IMG/VR virus record: IMGVR_UViG_3300030450_001690
Span: 1-22,425 of that record
Source of the DNA: a virus
Length of the DNA stretch: 22,425 nucleotides
Reading direction: 5' to 3' (one strand)
The notes beneath the pieces are model-generated. The model searched no databases, had not been told where the DNA came from, and saw only the letters and a program-made list of their open reading frames with translations. The stretch's first letter is position 1. The number at the start of each line of letters is the position of its first letter. Positions 1,858 to 19,552 of this stretch are shown here, piece by piece. The position numbers were made by a program, and so were the translations under genes.

Positions 1858-3660
1858 ATGGCTCGTAAAAAGAGACTTACAGCTAACAGAATAATAGACA
1901 TGGTGGAATCGCACCATGAGTCAACAGAACCTTTAAGAAGGCGAATGGAAGAAGACTTTCAACTTTACACTCTTGACCCTTATGACGCAGGAGACGGGTT
2001 TCAATCTTACACATCTAACGAACCAAGCACATTTGCTGACAAAGTTATAGATTATTTGGTAGGAAGTGAAATGGTAATTAGAGTACCAAACACTTCTGCT
2101 GACCAAGAACAACGTCAGGCAAACAATATGAAAGAAAAATTTATGCTTGGTATAATGAAGTCTGCAAACGAAAGACAAAAAATGGCATTACGCCCTTCAG
2201 TTAAAGATGTTCTTTCTTGGCAAATAGCTTTAAGAGGTTGGTTTGCAGGAAGAAGTTTGTTAAGAAAAGATAGTAACGGAAAAACTATTGTAGATATTAC
2301 GCCATGGGACGCACTTCATACTTATTGGGGGACATCAGATAACGGACTAGAATGGGCATGTTACAGAATTAGAAAATCAAAAACAGATATAGAGCAATCT
2401 TATAACGTTAGATTAGACGGAAGCATGCACCCAAATGAAGATTGGATAAACATGTACGATTATTATGACCGCGAAGTAAACATGGTTGTTCTTGAAAATG
2501 GAAGAATTATTAAAAAAGCTACGCCTCACGGCTCTCCAAGAGTTCCTGTATTTATATCTCCTGTAGGTTCTACTCCTATGGTACAAGCGTTAAACGAACA
2601 AGGAGTAACCATAACCGACACTATTGCTAACATGGGCGAAAGCGTGTTTAAACACAACCGTGAATCTTACGAAAATCACAATTACATGATGAGCGTTATG
2701 CTAGAACTTACAGCTCGTGCTAGAAAACAAGGAATGAAAATTATATCAAGAGACGGTACTAAAACCTTAGACGAAGACCCTTACAAAGAAGGTACTGAAA
2801 TATCTTTAGCACAGGGCGAAGACGTACAACCTTTAGGTATGCTAGAAGCAGCTAGAGAAACAGGTGCGTATATGTCAATGATTTCAGGAGAAATGCAAAG
2901 AGGAGGATTTCCTCATAGTATTTATGGAGACTTGCCATTTCAATTATCAGGATTTGCAATTAATACATTAAGGCAAGGAATAACAGGAGTAATTCAACCT
3001 AGGCTTAGTGCGTTAGAAGAAGCGTTTAAACAGGCTCTTATGTTGATATGCGACCAATATGTAACAGGTGCGTTTGGGGCTATGGAGTTATCAGGACAAG
3101 ATATGAACAGACAATATTTTAAAGAAGAGATATCTCCTGACATAGTAGCAATAGCAGGGGACATGGAACTTAGTTTAGTAGGACAACTTCCACAAGACGA
3201 TATGTCGAAGATGAGCATGGCTCAGATAGCAAGAGACGGTCAAACTCCGTTGTTGCCTGACATATATATTAGAGATAGAATTTTAGGACTACAAGACACT
3301 GACGAAATAGACGCTTCTATTAAAGAACAACAAGGAGAAAGAGTTTTGCCTGAAGCAACTTTACTTGGAATGGTACAAGCTGCTGAAAGAAGAGGCAGAG
3401 ACGACTTGGCTCAAATTTATTTAGGAGAATTAATGTTTGTGTTACAATCAAAATTAATACAAAGGCAACAGGCAATGCAGGCAATGCAACCACAACAACC
3501 ACAACAACCACAACAACCGCCGCAACCAAACGGAACTAGAGGCATAGACCCAAGAGTTATGCCTAACGCAATGACAGGAGCACCGCCACCAACACCAACA
3601 CCACCTCAAGGAATGGTAGCTCCGAACACACCAAGACCAAACGCTAGAAATAACAGATAA
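1858..3660 (+). CDS. Portal protein
   Basis: The 600-residue product probably forms the dodecameric ring at the special capsid vertex through which DNA enters and leaves. It lies directly after TerL and is in the size range of podovirus portals. The N-terminal third is helical and charged (LRRRMEEDFQLY, then FADKVIDYLVG). A middle part has aromatic/acidic strands such as ITPWDALHTYWG and EWACYRIRKS, typical of portal wing regions. A long helical stretch follows (TDTIANMGESVFKHNRESYENHNYMM and beyond, through QLSGFAINTLRQG) that may form the stem and crown. The last 70 residues are low complexity: MQAMQ repeats, QPQ repeats and a Pro/Thr tail, probably disordered inside the capsid. It starts 3 bp after the terL stop. 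The function is inferred from position, length and general pattern. Confidence 0.85.
   Translation: MARKKRLTANRIIDMVESHHESTEPLRRRMEEDFQLYTLDPYDAGDGFQSYTSNEPSTFADKVIDYLVGSEMVIRVPNTSADQEQRQANNMKEKFMLGIMKSANERQKMALRPSVKDVLSWQIALRGWFAGRSLLRKDSNGKTIVDITPWDALHTYWGTSDNGLEWACYRIRKSKTDIEQSYNVRLDGSMHPNEDWINMYDYYDREVNMVVLENGRIIKKATPHGSPRVPVFISPVGSTPMVQALNEQGVTITDTIANMGESVFKHNRESYENHNYMMSVMLELTARARKQGMKIISRDGTKTLDEDPYKEGTEISLAQGEDVQPLGMLEAARETGAYMSMISGEMQRGGFPHSIYGDLPFQLSGFAINTLRQGITGVIQPRLSALEEAFKQALMLICDQYVTGAFGAMELSGQDMNRQYFKEEISPDIVAIAGDMELSLVGQLPQDDMSKMSMAQIARDGQTPLLPDIYIRDRILGLQDTDEIDASIKEQQGERVLPEATLLGMVQAAERRGRDDLAQIYLGELMFVLQSKLIQRQQAMQAMQPQQPQQPQQPPQPNGTRGIDPRVMPNAMTGAPPPTPTPPQGMVAPNTPRPNARNNR
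2641..2656. repeat. Coding copy of the AGCGTGTTTAAACA palindromic motif
   Basis: The 16 bases AGCGTGTTTAAACACA inside the portal gene are identical to 11864-11879 in the gap before the scaffold gene, and 14 of them recur at 19135-19148. Here the bases encode Ser-Val-Phe-Lys-His, so this copy could be a coincidence of codon use. It is listed so that the three copies can be compared. Confidence 0.6.
3487..3518 (+). repeat. 9-bp tandem repeat in the portal C-terminus
   Basis: The unit CAACCACAA occurs three times in a row plus a partial fourth, encoding repeated Gln-Pro-Gln. Such a tract can change length by replication slippage without shifting the frame, so the portal tail probably varies in length between relatives. 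Confidence 0.85.
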
Positions 3661-5354: not shown

Positions 5355-8300
5355 TGGTTGAACCTAATTACATACAGGATTTCTTAAGAAGAGCAAGACA
5401 GCAAAATCCTATCTTTCCTTCTACAGATATACCTGTCCCTCCTTCTTTGACTGTTCCCCAAGTAATTAGAGATAGAAATATACAATACCCAAGACCTGTT
5501 AAGCCACTTGCGGTAAACGAAGATTTATATAACCAACCACCAACACAAGCTTACACGGAACAAGTACCTGCTCCTACTGCTGACCAAAGACTATCAATAA
5601 TTGCAGCACAAGACCCTAGCAGAGGACTTATGAGATTTGGAGCACCTGACAGAGTTGTTCCCGATTCAGATGAGGTAGCGTTAGAAAAACAACGAGCAGA
5701 CGCACTTCTTCAAGGAACTGCTATGCCTGCTGATTTAAACTTCAGGAAAATAGTTTTAGACAAGGTTAAATCCCCTTTTGATTACGACCCTAATAAGTTT
5801 ACTTCAGATACTGTAACAGAAGCAGAAGTAGACATGGTAGCAAACAAAGCACAAGAAGTTGCCAACAGTTCTTATACAAAAATACAAGCTTTTATAAAAA
5901 CAGTTGAAGACGCAAAAAAATTACCCAAGGTTCAATTAACCAAGGGAGGTTTTATTCCTAAAGGACAAAACGATTTATACAACTTGCAAAACACAAGTGT
6001 AGAAGATTTAAGATTGTACGCTAATAGTATTTTGTATGACGAAAACATTAAGGCAGGAGAGCCTTTAGATAAAATGTCCCAACTAGGAAAAGCTTTGTAT
6101 GACCAAGAAAACATAAGCGACATGGAAGATGTAAACAGGATTTCAGAAACATTTAAATATAACTCGGGTGTAATAAAAGGATTACTACACCCTACAATAA
6201 CTCCGTGGGAAAGTTTTGAAATGGGGTATTGGGATTTGGCTTTCTATGCGATATTAGACTTTACTGCTGCTAAAGTATTAGCAAAAACATACGGCGGAGG
6301 AACTGTATCAGCTTTTGGAATAAGTACACCAAAAATAGGAATACAACCTGCAGCGTCAGCTATTGCCAAAACAAATGCTTACCAAGCTGTAACGAATCAA
6401 ACAACAAAGGTTATAGATAGCGTTATACCGCAAGCAGTTAAATCTGCTTTTGGTTCTGCAATGAACAAAGCAAAAGGATTAAAAGCACCTGCTTTGGAAT
6501 TTCAAGGAAGTCAGTTTAAATATTGGGCAGGAGGTACTCCTTCTTATTTAGGAACAGAAGCAGCCGTAAAAACACAAACAGACAATCCGTGGTTAATTTA
6601 TCCTACAAGCATAATAGCCGCAGGTGGAATACCTGCCGCCGTACCTAAAGTAAAAGATATTGCTACTACAGGGTTATTAAAAACAGGCGGGCTAGCAAAA
6701 ACAGCAGGCAAAACTGTAGGAGAAAGTGCTTGGAGAAATGTATTAAAATTAAAAAAACTTGACGCAGACATAGGAATAACTCCTTCTGTTGACGAAACTC
6801 AAGGCTTTACACCGTTTTTTAACAAAGCAGCAAAAGAAACAATAAGCAAAGAAAACAACAAACTAATAACAGGAACTGCTTCTGAAAAAATACAAGCAGA
6901 AAAAAATATAAATAAAATATTACAACCTGCTATAAATGATTTAAAAGAAAAAAGTACAGAATTAGGACTTGATGAAGCAATTCAACCAAAACCAAATATG
7001 GGATTATACGGAGGGTACGCAGAACATTCTATAGAAATGGTAGTTCCTTCTAATTTAAACGACTTAGACCAAATACTTTTTCTTGCTGCTGACAGAGCAA
7101 AAGCTTACAACCAAGACTCAACTTTAATTATACTAGAAGGACTAGACGCTAATTCTGCTTTAGTAAAAAGCACGGCTCGTATGTTTCCTGATTTACTAGG
7201 AGGAAAAGAATTTGTAAACTCTCCTATTATGAAAATAGATTTTGACAAAGCATTAACAGCTCAAGAAATAACAAACTTGCAAAAAACCCTTGCAAACCAA
7301 TCTCCCGTGTCAATAAATAAAATTACAGGAGAAGCTAGTGACAGAATCATTAGTGGGTTAAAATTGTCATCAGATAAGAAAAGTGTTACAATAGCTTTTG
7401 TAGATGAATTTCTACCTGAAAACACATCAATAACAAGGGCATTAAATGACTTTAAACAATTCGGAAAGCAACTTGCAACAGACCCCGACGGAGCGGGACT
7501 TCCAATCCTTACAAGATTGGGCGGAAGAGTTAAATTCTCTAGCGGCGTTGTCAGGTCGGTTGTCAGAGAAGAATACGACAGCGTCGGCAATCGTTTTCTC
7601 AACACCAACAGAGGTAAACAATATCTCAACAGAACCTCTGCAAAACGAACAAAGCAACTCTTAGACGACTACGAAGTCGATTACAAATGGTTTGAACCAC
7701 AGCCTGCGTTTGCAGGAACAGACCCTGTAAATGACCCTTATATTAGAATAGGGCAAGCTTTTAGTGAATCTGCAAAAAACAAAAACGTAATATCTGACGA
7801 TACTAGTCCTATATTAAAATGGGCTAAAAACTTTGTACACAACCCTCCTCCTACAAAAGACGGACAACCTTCAGGCACACATATTAGCAGAGCATTTGTT
7901 CATTTTATGCAAAGAATGTGGGACAACACTTATTTATTAAGAAGAGTTGGAGGACAATGGGGGCAAAAATCTTACGAAGAAATAGAAGATATGATAGTTT
8001 CTTTTGGAGGAGTTTCTGCACAAATTAATACTAGAATGAAAAGCGTGTTAAAAGAGCTTTCACAAATAGCTCCTGATTTAGACGTGACTGATTTAGATTT
8101 ATTAATGCGTATGGAACTTACTCTTAACTTGGCTAGGCAATGGACAAGAATTAACCCGAAAACTATGTTGCCACAAGGTCAAATGAAAAAGCTTCCTATT
8201 CCTATAGATGAAATATTAGGGAAAAAAACTAACAAGGTAACTTACGGAGACGTTGTAGACAACGTAGAATTAATAAGAGAAGAGCTTGTAAAAAAATACG

Positions 8301-12781: not shown

Positions 12782-13651
12782 ATGGCTCAAACCGCTACAA
12801 CAGGTAGTTTAGAGAACGCGAGCAGAACTATAATCGCGGCTGCTAGATATACCGAGGAGCACAATGCTCCCGCTATGGCTTTAATAGAGAAGTTCACACT
12901 TCCTAAAGGTTCAAAGCAAGTAACTGTGCCAAAAGTCTCACAAATGACCGTGTCTGACTTAACAGACGGACAGGACATTGTTGACGAAGAAGAGATAGGA
13001 ATGACAACAGTCAGCCTTACTGCAAGTGAGGTAGGAGCTAAAGTTATTCTTACCGACAAACTTGTTCGTGAACAACAAAACAATGTGTTTACTATTATTG
13101 GTAAACAACTTGGAGACGCAATGGCAAGAAAAAAAGATACTGATGTTCACTCATTGTATAGTTCATTAAATGGTGGCACTACACTTGGTGCAGCAGCAGC
13201 TACAGCAAGTTTAGCTAACATGGCAGGTGCAATAGCATACGCAAAAGCCAACAAGTTTGGAACAGAAATATATATTCTGCAACACCCAAATACTGTTTTT
13301 GATATTGCTAACACAGCAGTAACAGCTTCTTCAACTTACCCTGTACCACATGGTTGGTCTGAAGATTTACTAGGAAACTTCTTTAGTGGTCTAAGACCTC
13401 TTAATGGAGTTCCAATTTTTGAAGACGGAAACTTATCAGTTGACTCAAATGATGACGCAGTTGGCGTTATTGCTGACAAATCAGCTCTAGCTGTACTACA
13501 GTCTGTTGACAGTAGAACAGAGAGACAGAGAGACGCTTCAATGCGTGCAACTGAGGTAGTTATAACTGCGGATTACGGAGTTGCAGAGCTTGATGATTCA
13601 AGAGGTGCACCTTTGACTTTTGACGCTTCCGCTCCTTCAACTAGTGCGTAA
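12782..13651 (+). CDS. Major capsid protein, HK97 fold
   Basis: The 289-residue product is the probable shell subunit. The start has a helical/polar arm, then the elements expected of HK97-fold capsid proteins: a beta strand pair with GSKQVTVPKVSQMTVSDLTDG (extended loop-like), a long spine helix at about 100-120 (FTIIGKQLGDAMARKKDTDVHSLYSSLNG), then the P-domain/A-domain with IYILQHPNTVFDIAN and VPIFEDGNL. Near the end, VVITADYGVAELDDSRGAPL resembles the last strand of small capsid proteins of podoviruses. A GGAGG site lies 6 bases before ATG. The gene follows the scaffold and is flanked by small head genes. The short length is normal for HK97-fold proteins without a cleaved delta domain. 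No sequence search was run; the fold is inferred from the pattern and position. Confidence 0.88.
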   Translation: MAQTATTGSLENASRTIIAAARYTEEHNAPAMALIEKFTLPKGSKQVTVPKVSQMTVSDLTDGQDIVDEEEIGMTTVSLTASEVGAKVILTDKLVREQQNNVFTIIGKQLGDAMARKKDTDVHSLYSSLNGGTTLGAAAATASLANMAGAIAYAKANKFGTEIYILQHPNTVFDIANTAVTASSTYPVPHGWSEDLLGNFFSGLRPLNGVPIFEDGNLSVDSNDDAVGVIADKSALAVLQSVDSRTERQRDASMRATEVVITADYGVAELDDSRGAPLTFDASAPSTSA

Positions 13652-13680
13652 TTAAAAATTAAATAATAAATGGAGGCTTT

Positions 13681-14091
13681 ATGGGTACAGGCATGCCGTC
13701 TGCACAGCGTAGAGAATTGTTAGAAGAGTTAAATCAATCTAACAGGGAGTTAGGTATGAACAAAGATTATGATTGGCAATTATTAGAAAGTTGGCAAGAT
13801 AAGGTTACTTTATATCAACACCTCCCTTCTTATACGGTAGAAGGAAAGGTTTGGAAACCCTGTGGGACAAAACACCTTAATCAGGTAGGAGACCCGCAAA
13901 ACCTAGCAAGGAAAGCTAAAGTTCCGTTAGCGTGGTTAATAACGCCATGGGACGGAGTTTGCAAAATGGAATTGCAAGGTAAAGAGTGTGCTTGTAAAAA
14001 AGCAGGCTTTAATGAAGATAAAGACAAAGTTACTCAGGAGAAAACTGAAGTTAAGGCGGAAACGCCTAAACAAAAAGCTACTCCTGAATAG
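13681..14091 (+). CDS. Unknown 136-aa protein with Cys/His cluster
   Basis: I do not recognise this protein. The N-terminus is helical and charged (AQRRELLEELNQSNRELG). The middle is Trp/Tyr-rich, with the Trp residues spaced through WQLLESWQDKV and VEGKVWKPCG. Five metal-ligand-like residues stand out: Cys61, His65, Cys94, Cys103 and Cys105 (CGTKH, then CKMELQGKECAC). The last 28 residues are Lys/Glu-rich and probably disordered. It lies between the major capsid and decoration genes with GGAGG 4 bases before ATG, and a 105-bp gap with a promoter candidate follows it. Such small genes next to the capsid often encode head-completion or stabilising proteins, but nothing here proves it. Zinc binding is a hypothesis from the Cys/His spacing. 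Confidence 0.6.
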   Translation: MGTGMPSAQRRELLEELNQSNRELGMNKDYDWQLLESWQDKVTLYQHLPSYTVEGKVWKPCGTKHLNQVGDPQNLARKAKVPLAWLITPWDGVCKMELQGKECACKKAGFNEDKDKVTQEKTEVKAETPKQKATPE

Positions 14092-14100
14092 CTTGTTTTA

Positions 14101-14139
14101 GTATAAGTGTAATCTTTGACCGAGCTTATACGACTTTTT
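14101..14139 (+). terminator. Possible weak intrinsic terminator after the capsid operon
   Basis: GTATAAG (14101-14107) pairs perfectly with CTTATAC (14125-14131) around a 17-base loop, and five T residues follow (14135-14139). The stem is AT-rich and the loop long, so termination would be partial. It overlaps the promoter candidate at 14116-14145, so the two roles may compete or the stem may be incidental. Confidence 0.3.
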
Positions 14140-14145
14140 AATAAT
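14116..14145 (+). promoter_or_regulatory. Sigma70-like promoter candidate before the decoration gene
   Basis: TTGACC (14116-14121, five of six -35 consensus bases) is separated by 18 bases from AATAAT (14140-14145, five of six -10 bases). Initiation near 14152 would give a leader of about 45 bases ahead of the decoration gene at 14197. The leader contains a CGGG/CCCG (14156-14159 with 14171-14174) possible stem and ends in a strong ribosome site. This is consensus evidence only. Confidence 0.5.
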
Positions 14146-14183
14146 CGGTTAAAGGCGGGGTATATAGAAACCCGTAAATAAAT

Positions 14184-14190
14184 AAGGAGG
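14184..14190 (+). promoter_or_regulatory. Strong ribosome binding site of the decoration gene
   Basis: AAGGAGG with 6 bases to the ATG is a full match to the anti-Shine-Dalgarno sequence and the best in the window. It fits a protein made in capsid-level amounts. Confidence 0.75.
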
Positions 14191-14196
14191 AAAGCT

Positions 14197-14937
14197 ATGG
14201 CTTTTCCAAATACAATCGTAGGAAAATACGGGTGGGAGAAAAAAGAAACTTCTGCTCAGAAACTTCCTTTAGGTACTGAGATGATTCTTCGAGACGGAAG
14301 AAGATATCGGTACACACACAACGGTGGTACTGCAATAGGAGAGGGGCTAGTAGTAGCTTCAGAAGCTCCTGCAGGAAACCATGATGAAGACTTGGTTATC
14401 GCAACAGGTGCTTCAGCAGGAGGTACAACTCTTGGTGTAACTCTTGGAGGAACTGCGGCGGCTAAAGATTTATATGCAGAAGGATATATATTCTTTAATT
14501 TACCGACTACAGACCCACATGAAATGTACAAAATTAAATCACACCCTGCTATCGATTCTTCAGGAACAGGTACTTTTACCATTGATGAAGAAGACGGGTT
14601 TATTACTGCAGTAGTTGCAGGAACAGACACAGCAGGTTTAATTAAGAATCCTTACAAAGACATTGTAGTTGCCCCTGCGGCAGTTGCAGGTAGATTTGTT
14701 GGAGTTACTACAAGAAACTTCACAGCAGACTACTATGGTTGGGTTCAGGTTAGTGGTCTTGCTACAGCAAAGATTGACGGCACTCCTGCTGTTGGTACTT
14801 TGGTTGGTGCAAGCTCAAACCACGCAGGTCAATTATTAGCTATCGGTGCGGACACTACTCCTGCTCTTGCAAGATTGCATGGTAAAGCAGGCGTGGACAA
14901 TGAGTTCCATACTGTAATGTTAATGAACCTACAGTAA
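14197..14937 (+). CDS. Probable capsid decoration/structural protein
   Basis: The 246-residue product is beta-rich, with many Gly, Ala, Thr and Val residues, no cysteine, and alternating hydrophobic strands. Examples are GTEMILRDGRRYRYTHNGG near residue 30, YIFFNLPTTDPHEMYKIK near 100, GTFTIDEEDGFITAVVAG near 130 and YYGWVQVSGLATAKIDG near 190. The overall pattern, an alanine-rich beta protein with 'G-x-L-V-A-S' and 'Y-Y-G-W-V-Q-V-S-G' strands, is one I associate with phage head-decoration or capsid-associated beta-sandwich proteins. Its own promoter candidate and perfect ribosome site suggest high copy number, which fits a decoration protein. It sits between the capsid and tail genes. An alternative is a second major head protein; a tail tube protein is less likely in a podovirus layout. 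The family name remains open. Confidence 0.65.
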   Translation: MAFPNTIVGKYGWEKKETSAQKLPLGTEMILRDGRRYRYTHNGGTAIGEGLVVASEAPAGNHDEDLVIATGASAGGTTLGVTLGGTAAAKDLYAEGYIFFNLPTTDPHEMYKIKSHPAIDSSGTGTFTIDEEDGFITAVVAGTDTAGLIKNPYKDIVVAPAAVAGRFVGVTTRNFTADYYGWVQVSGLATAKIDGTPAVGTLVGASSNHAGQLLAIGADTTPALARLHGKAGVDNEFHTVMLMNLQ

Positions 14938-14942
14938 ATTAA

Positions 14943-15371
14943 ATGTTTCAGCATACTGAGACATACGATAGACGGTTAGTGTTACCTGCAGGCGTTCTTC
15001 TTCTAGGAGAGTTGCCTGCAGGTAATACCTTAAGCTCGCTTTCTTTTAGTTTTTACGATTCGGTTACAGAACGTAGGTCAGTAATTCACAACATTCCTTA
15101 CACTCCTAATGACCCTTATTCTCACAACGGAATTGAAACTATGATAGGAGAAGCTCACGAAACATGGCTTAAAAACGTAAGAGAGCAAGGCAAAAAGAAA
15201 CCTAAAATGACTGTAGAACAAAGAAAAGAATTTGGTAAAATACTAGAAGAAATAAGAGTAAACAAAAACAAACGAAAAGAAAGTACAAACAATAAAATTT
15301 ATTACGAGGGGACAAATAATGGAAGACAACAAAATCGTAGACAGTTTAGACGCAGCACTAGACTCTCCTGA
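14943..15371 (+). CDS. Unknown 142-aa protein with basic C-terminus
   Basis: I do not recognise this family. Residues 1-70 are a globular, Leu-rich part (RRLVLPAGVLLLGELPAGN, then beta-like YDSVTERRSVIHNIPYTPND). Residues 70-120 are helical and Lys/Glu-rich, including KKPKMTVEQRKEFGKILEEIR. The last 40 residues are Asn/Arg/Gln-rich and run 53 bp into the next gene in another frame, so the tail may be constrained by that overlap rather than by its own function. The ATG lies 5 bp after the decoration stop without a clear ribosome site, so translation probably depends on coupling. Position among small head genes suggests a head-completion or assembly role, but no direct evidence exists. Confidence 0.55.
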   Translation: MFQHTETYDRRLVLPAGVLLLGELPAGNTLSSLSFSFYDSVTERRSVIHNIPYTPNDPYSHNGIETMIGEAHETWLKNVREQGKKKPKMTVEQRKEFGKILEEIRVNKNKRKESTNNKIYYEGTNNGRQQNRRQFRRSTRLS

Positions 15372-15687: not shown

Positions 15688-15966
15688 ATGGCGAGAGACC
15701 CTAGATTAAAAAGAGCAGGGGTTTCAGGGTTTAATAAACCTAAACGAACTCCTAGTCATAAAACTAAATCTCATGTAGTAGTGGCTAAAGAAGGAGACAA
15801 AATAAAGTTAATCAGATTTGGTCAGCAAGGTGTTAGTGGTGCAGGAAAAAATCCTAAATCAGCTAAAGACAAAGCAAGAAGAAAATCTTTTAAAGCTAGA
15901 CATGGTAAAAATATAGCTAAGGGTAAAATGTCCGCAGCACATTGGGCTAATAAAGTGAAGTGGTAA
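15688..15966 (+). CDS. Conserved-type small basic phage protein, 92 aa (possibly DUF6321)
   Basis: The protein is strongly basic and ends in a Trp-rich tail. Its features are RLKRAGVSGFNKPKRTP near the start, SHVVVAKEGDKIKLIRFGQQG in the middle (a short beta hairpin) and KSFKARHGKN then KGKMSAAHWANKVKW at the end. I recall a family of phage proteins with these same motifs in virion regions of marine phages, possibly Pfam DUF6321; this is from memory. Its role is not known to me. It follows the AT-hook-like peptide by 2 bp, so two Lys/Arg-rich proteins stand side by side. The start is fixed by the tight junction, though no strong ribosome site is present. Nucleic-acid contact is plausible from the charge only. 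Confidence 0.8.
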   Translation: MARDPRLKRAGVSGFNKPKRTPSHKTKSHVVVAKEGDKIKLIRFGQQGVSGAGKNPKSAKDKARRKSFKARHGKNIAKGKMSAAHWANKVKW

Positions 15967-19133: not shown

Positions 19134-19148
19134 GAGCGTGTTTAAACA
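19134..19148. repeat. Boundary copy of the GAGCGTGTTTAAACA motif
   Basis: These 15 bases are identical to 11863-11877. The last A is the first base of the ATG of the nuclease-like gene, so the motif fills the whole gap between the nozzle and nuclease genes. It may act on translation or transcription, or mark a recombination junction. Confidence 0.6.
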
Positions 19149-19552
19149 TGGTAACTAACAACACAAATACATTACCTCAAGTTCCTTCTAGTTGGGAAGG
19201 AAGCCTTCCTGAGTACATGGTACTTCAAGCTTTAAATAGATTAGGGCTAAGAGACGGCTACGAGTTTACCTATCAGTCTCCTTTACTTGGAGGCAGAATA
19301 GAAAAAGGCGGGTATGTTGTAGACTTTTTGTTTAATGAACCCCCTGATTTAGCAATAAATGTACAGGGAGAATATTGGCATTATGCTCAGGGAATAACTA
19401 AAACAACAAGCGACGACATGTCGAGAGCAATCTTAGCAGGGCAAGGAATAACCTTGATTATGATTGATGAAAATGATATATATAAAGATGTGGATTTTTA
19501 TGTAAGGGAAGCTTTACGATATAGAGACCACTCCAAACAAGTCGGGAGATAA
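19148..19552 (+). CDS. PD-(D/E)XK-nuclease-like (Vsr/DUF559-type) small protein
   Basis: The 134-residue product follows the restriction-endonuclease-like fold pattern: an early Glu (Glu22 in LPEYMVLQAL), an alpha helix, a strand with Asp59 in YVVDFLF, then a strand ending LAINVQGEYWHY, a helix (DDMSRAILAGQG), and a strand TLIMIDENDIY. In Vsr/DUF559-type proteins the strand after the Asp usually reads IExxG; here Asn71 replaces the Glu while Gln73 and Glu75 follow. The enzyme may thus be altered, inactive or use another residue. It sits between nozzle and fibre genes. The ATG at 19148 is the first in frame after the stop at 19133 and lacks a Shine-Dalgarno sequence. An 8-codon ORF (19132-19158) overlaps it and may couple translation. 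A role in virion assembly, packaging or entry is open. Confidence 0.55.
   Translation: MVTNNTNTLPQVPSSWEGSLPEYMVLQALNRLGLRDGYEFTYQSPLLGGRIEKGGYVVDFLFNEPPDLAINVQGEYWHYAQGITKTTSDDMSRAILAGQGITLIMIDENDIYKDVDFYVREALRYRDHSKQVGR

Follow-up and report, generated by a model that had tools for sequence, protein, structure and literature searches.

Why should one long phage gene abruptly favour C in the third codon position over some 75 codons, and what has the +1 frame lying open across nearly all of that stretch to do with it? An initial annotation, which pointed out both features, left a choice between an overprinted gene restricting third bases and a foreign segment recombined into the gene. The answer favoured here, with a high degree of confidence though short of certainty, is that 7446-7664 is an overprinted +1 gene whose 72-aa protein would be translated from its own AAGGG-ATG and kept by purifying selection.

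The codon island and its setting

The window, meaning the whole stretch of DNA that was analysed, is a virus record of 22,425 bases and comprises a tailed-phage structural module (Table 1). LPD38 is the sole Pfam domain above cut-off in the giant protein (46.4 bits against a cut-off of 27), and since no second domain reaches that level while distant ones could escape detection, the product is labelled only as virion-type. The phage is probably marine, because the small protein encoded downstream at 15688-15966 finds its matches among phages of Roseobacter-group hosts, cyanobacteria and Puniceispirillum. Within the late gene block a small ORF (19148-19552) weakly resembles HNH/homing endonuclease families.

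Table 1. Positions of the features discussed, in window coordinates
Feature	Position	Strand	Remarks
Small and large terminase genes			in the structural module of the window
600-aa product in the usual portal position	1858-3660		without family match
Giant gene, virion-type protein, 2152 aa	5354-11812	+	LPD38 domain near residues 1521-1702
Promoter-like TTGTCA-17-TACAAT, TG before the -10 (extended -10)	7364-7392	+	putative, weak
AAGGG, Shine-Dalgarno-like	7435-7439	+	6 nt between its end and the ATG; L065 has AAGG at almost that position
Putative overprinted gene, +1 frame, 72 aa, ATG to TAG	7446-7664	+	start, stop, length and residues conserved in L065; third-base constraint on host frame
C-ending-codon/GC3 island, giant frame	about 7448-7690	+	codon counts, both lineages
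Major capsid protein	12782-13651		later virion genes downstream

The C-ending stretch described in the initial annotation is borne out by codon counts and by shuffling, and its hand count of about 56 G+C in the 120 bases of 7501-7620 proves exact on recounting. Against gene-wide values of 0.135 for C3 and 0.238 for GC3, the top 73-codon window for C3 (7475-7693) reaches 0.384, the next non-overlapping one being at 0.233, and that for GC3 (7466-7684) reaches 0.466, with the next at 0.356. The best window of 75 codons has 29 that end in C, a number that 5000 synonymous-codon shuffles within the gene never attained (maximum 26), and by such shuffles the GC3 island has P = 0.004. There is one such C-ending island in the giant gene, the largest by far, and the homologous gene of the relative L065 has its top C3 and GC3 windows at the same place. 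The +1 ORF, with its ATG, its 72 codons and its AAGGG, is also as first described, and it nearly spans the island; C-ending codons persist for some 10 codons beyond its stop.

A nested frame conserved between two lineages

The ORF is complete and lies wholly within the giant gene in a different frame. An open +1 run of at least 72 codons is only mildly unusual in a single genome (P = 0.07 under synonymous shuffling), so that homologues are needed to judge it, and such significance as the ORF has would come from its conservation and not from its openness in one genome. Three homologues of the giant gene were available: L002 (99% identical, hence uninformative), L065 (55% identical; L006, L062 and L063 are this contig too) and L005, which is close to L065 and ends at a contig edge. 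As L002 and L005 are near copies of one or the other, the collections hold two independent lineages, and scans of viral contigs and genome contigs found no third with a homologue of the giant gene. Those terminase relatives whose giant-gene position was in reach have giant genes that are unrelated or too distant, and that are without this ORF. Two of these distant relatives have, in unrelated 1386-aa genes, nested +1 ATG ORFs of 73 and 88 aa (L054:15476 and L061:4521, giant-gene offset 832), which at 98% identity are too alike for a test of conservation.

The two lineages are strongly mosaic. For the capsid block (12782-15371) protein identity is 96-99% in most genes and third positions are 86-98% identical, against 55% for the giant protein of the same pair, and the giant gene has the look of an allele that is old and quick to diverge. 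Its main difference from the otherwise 99% identical L002 is a short hypervariable patch with small indels near the N-terminus of the protein (5740-5775).

Across the island the giant protein aligns gap-free to that of L065, and the +1 ORF there is again 72 codons long, without an indel, has its ATG and TAG at identical positions and agrees at 45 of the 72 residues. Stops in the +1 frame of homologues had been named at the outset as what would count against overprinting; L065 has none, and keeps both start and stop. In the giant frame, identity to L065 at codon positions 1, 2 and 3 is 0.69, 0.74 and 0.72 over the ORF compared with 0.66, 0.75 and 0.54 gene-wide, so the raised conservation is limited to third positions. 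Conservation of that kind points to a second, +1-phase coding frame rather than to a recent exchange, which would raise all three positions.

Neighbouring genes differ greatly in their divergence, which confounded a synonymous model pooled over genes; constraint was therefore scored within the gene, with a codon model trained on its remainder and conditioned on amino acids. Third-position z over the 73 codons of the ORF is 6.6 and 6.8 in the two directions, the maximum of the gene, while the best non-overlapping window elsewhere has 2.4-2.7; synonymous divergence of the host frame is reduced over the ORF. The initial annotation had proposed comparing third-position with +1-frame rates, and giant third-base divergence does fall sharply here. 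Substitutions are near-even over the +1 codon positions (19/21/22), so that synonymous change is not dominant in that frame, which weakens a simple dN/dS reading; an even spread is what is expected given that the third positions of the ORF are first positions of the giant gene.

In simulated descendants subject to giant-frame constraint alone, 6.8 and 5.7 internal +1 stops are expected where none is seen, and a stop-free +1 frame was reached in 0 and 4 of 20,000 draws. Under the same conditioning on the giant protein, the 45 +1 identities compare with 22 and 26 expected. The identity z of 8.6 and 7.6 at the ORF stands against a maximum of 2.3 for 44 windows of this gene used as controls, whose low values indicate that the null is calibrated. 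The ORF is conserved beyond what its host frame leads one to expect. Because conservation of third bases raises identity in all frames, a second null took as given which third bases had changed and redrew only such synonymous choices as were left; with it, avoidance of +1 stops has P = 0.009 and 0.0001, and conservation of +1 residue type (BLOSUM) P = 0.006 and 0.00015. Among five alternative frames the +1 alone shows both effects in both directions, the +2 frame having an effect on residue type (P = 0.01) and one antisense frame on stops (P = 0.02), each in one direction. Two antisense ORFs were set aside: one, 7261-7629, would be open by virtue of the giant codons themselves (expected stops 0.00), and the other, 7442-7657, is matched in L065 by a shorter ORF of 51 aa and shows no excess that is consistent. 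The locus, then, has a codon island, an intact and conserved ORF, and third-position constraint specific to the +1 frame.

Origin of the constraint and routes of expression

An overprinted gene would account for the island in a simple manner. With the third base of a giant codon serving as second base of a +1 codon, a synonymous change in the giant gene would alter the small protein, and giant third bases would thereby be locked; and as codons for Ser, Thr, Ala and Pro, in which the product is rich, mostly have C at position 2, the locked bases would often be C, giving the C3/GC island. Of the two possibilities first raised, it is overprinting that the stop-free frame and the third-base constraint in L065 support.

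Could the bases be conserved for themselves, the open +1 frame being a by-product of a packaging, promoter or structured RNA signal? Third-base conservation does extend upstream of the ORF, and it peaks in a 36-nt stretch (7574-7608) with a possible hairpin, in which the nucleotides are near-identical and the residues of both frames almost all conserved. Yet an Rfam search gave no match, folding energies are ordinary (z -1.9 and -0.9), positions 1 and 2 of the giant frame are not more conserved, the constraint matches a complete ORF, and it is the +1 frame alone which, with changed third bases fixed, still avoids stops and keeps its residues in both directions. Such an element is thus an unlikely source of the whole pattern, and the 36-nt stretch could be an additional nucleic-acid signal that does not account for the whole ORF.

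Recombination into the giant gene of a foreign or exchanged stretch, with codon habits of its own, would fit the abruptness of the change, and the mosaicism, with a capsid block near-identical in lineages whose giant genes differ, shows that exchange occurs elsewhere in this phage. Here there is no sign of a recent one: the alignment to diverged L065, which has the same island, is gap-free through both edges and at positions 1 and 2 the similarity is that of the gene at large, while an exchange before the lineages split would leave the later third-base conservation unexplained, so that this second possibility of the initial annotation becomes very improbable. That the frame is open merely by chance in a stretch of odd codons, with no second product, might be argued from the modest rarity of so long a run in one genome and from an unconserved 79-codon +2 run elsewhere in L065; set against the conservation statistics, their nulls and the calibrated control windows, it is scarcely credible.

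How might an overprinted gene at 7446-7664 be expressed? L065 retains AAGG although the giant residues there differ, but comparable sites precede 14-19% of off-frame ATGs, so that for an internal start the site is no more than supportive. The promoter-like site is 53 nt before the ATG and in L065 has an identical -10 and a -35 weaker by one base; adjoining it, all 15 of the 15 third positions in 7373-7417 are conserved (z about 3.3). In the giant gene as a whole, the promoter scan found no more such sites than in shuffled sequence, and as a real promoter this one is suggestive only. Almost no third-base change is seen in 7364-7423, over and after it. Translation would proceed from the internal ATG on the transcript of the giant gene, or on a short transcript started near 7399 from the promoter-like site, with expression presumably late, alongside the structural genes. 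Entry by programmed frameshifting from upstream is excluded in the window, where a TAA stop in the +1 frame directly precedes the ATG, and extension by stop readthrough would in L065 meet a further +1 stop five codons on.

The product and its known counterparts

The 72-aa product has a pI of 4.05 (4.77 for its L065 orthologue), is hydrophilic (GRAVY -0.79 and -0.65 for the two orthologues) and has no membrane segment, and neither orthologue contains a cysteine. Its predicted structure is a single helix (16-42) in disorder, of low overall confidence (pLDDT 64). There was no credible match for it in Pfam, PHROGs, a phage collection or a viral fold library; those to ZorA (padloc E 0.0034, one orthologue only) and to a C-type lectin (PDB E 0.0018, 22 residues) probably reflect helix composition. 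The field of overprinted genes, and the viral trend for a largely disordered newcomer to be overprinted on an older folded domain, have been reviewed (PMC8227390). The corresponding stretch of the giant protein (about 698-770) is among its better-predicted parts (block pLDDT 72-88, in a low-confidence model), and the predicted contrast fits that trend. Codon usage here correlates with that of the genome at 0.31 in the giant frame and at -0.06 in the +1 frame, which agrees with the latter being the newcomer; the small protein would then belong to the younger frame, and its family is probably an orphan one, born de novo.

Suggestions as to role can be no more than tentative. From location alone, the protein might perhaps be a small soluble helical partner, or an assembly or packaging factor, of the giant virion protein. 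An equally tentative alternative is that the gene arose de novo, has a promoter to itself, and that its orphan helical product has a role separate from that of the giant protein; this reading, which as a whole is doubtful, also takes in the gene's position on a folded domain in an uncultured, probably marine phage group, and for it host takeover or counter-defence are conceivable examples.

What was seen in raw sequence as a codon island has led to a hidden gene backed by two diverged lineages, and with it to an orphan family of proteins that probably arose de novo. The case suggests that, in long phage genes, an abrupt island of third-base bias can serve in practice to flag a gene concealed within. 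In all likelihood 7446-7664 is a genuine small gene, of the sort that standard annotation would overlook.

In tailed dsDNA phages, the most familiar of the well-supported overprinted genes belong to lysis cassettes, and such genes are thrown out by gene callers. Gene E of the small ssDNA phage phiX174, which encodes a membrane lysis protein, lies in an alternative frame within D, with both frames under selection. The gene proposed here resembles it in being overprinted in an alternative frame with selection on both, and differs in that the phage is a tailed dsDNA one and the product is without a membrane segment. For the host gene alone, LPD38 and a position between terminase and capsid genes are shared with the large polyvalent proteins, with LPD domains, that phages encode at that location (Iyer et al. 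2017, PMC5512222); the word 'overlapping' is absent from that text, which does not appear to report a nested gene. A similar arrangement is seen in the embedded spanins of lambda, Rz/Rz1, where the +1 frame of one phage gene contains the whole of a smaller gene, of a type usually missed by gene-calling programs (PMC6139136). Rz1, a lipoprotein of the outer membrane, forms a pair with a membrane i-spanin, whereas here the host gene encodes a 2152-aa virion-type protein and the nested product is hydrophilic; lacking the cysteine of a lipobox for lipid attachment in either orthologue, it is not an embedded o-spanin of that kind. The class, that of overprinted nested phage genes, is a known one, and its member here is probably a new and unrelated product.
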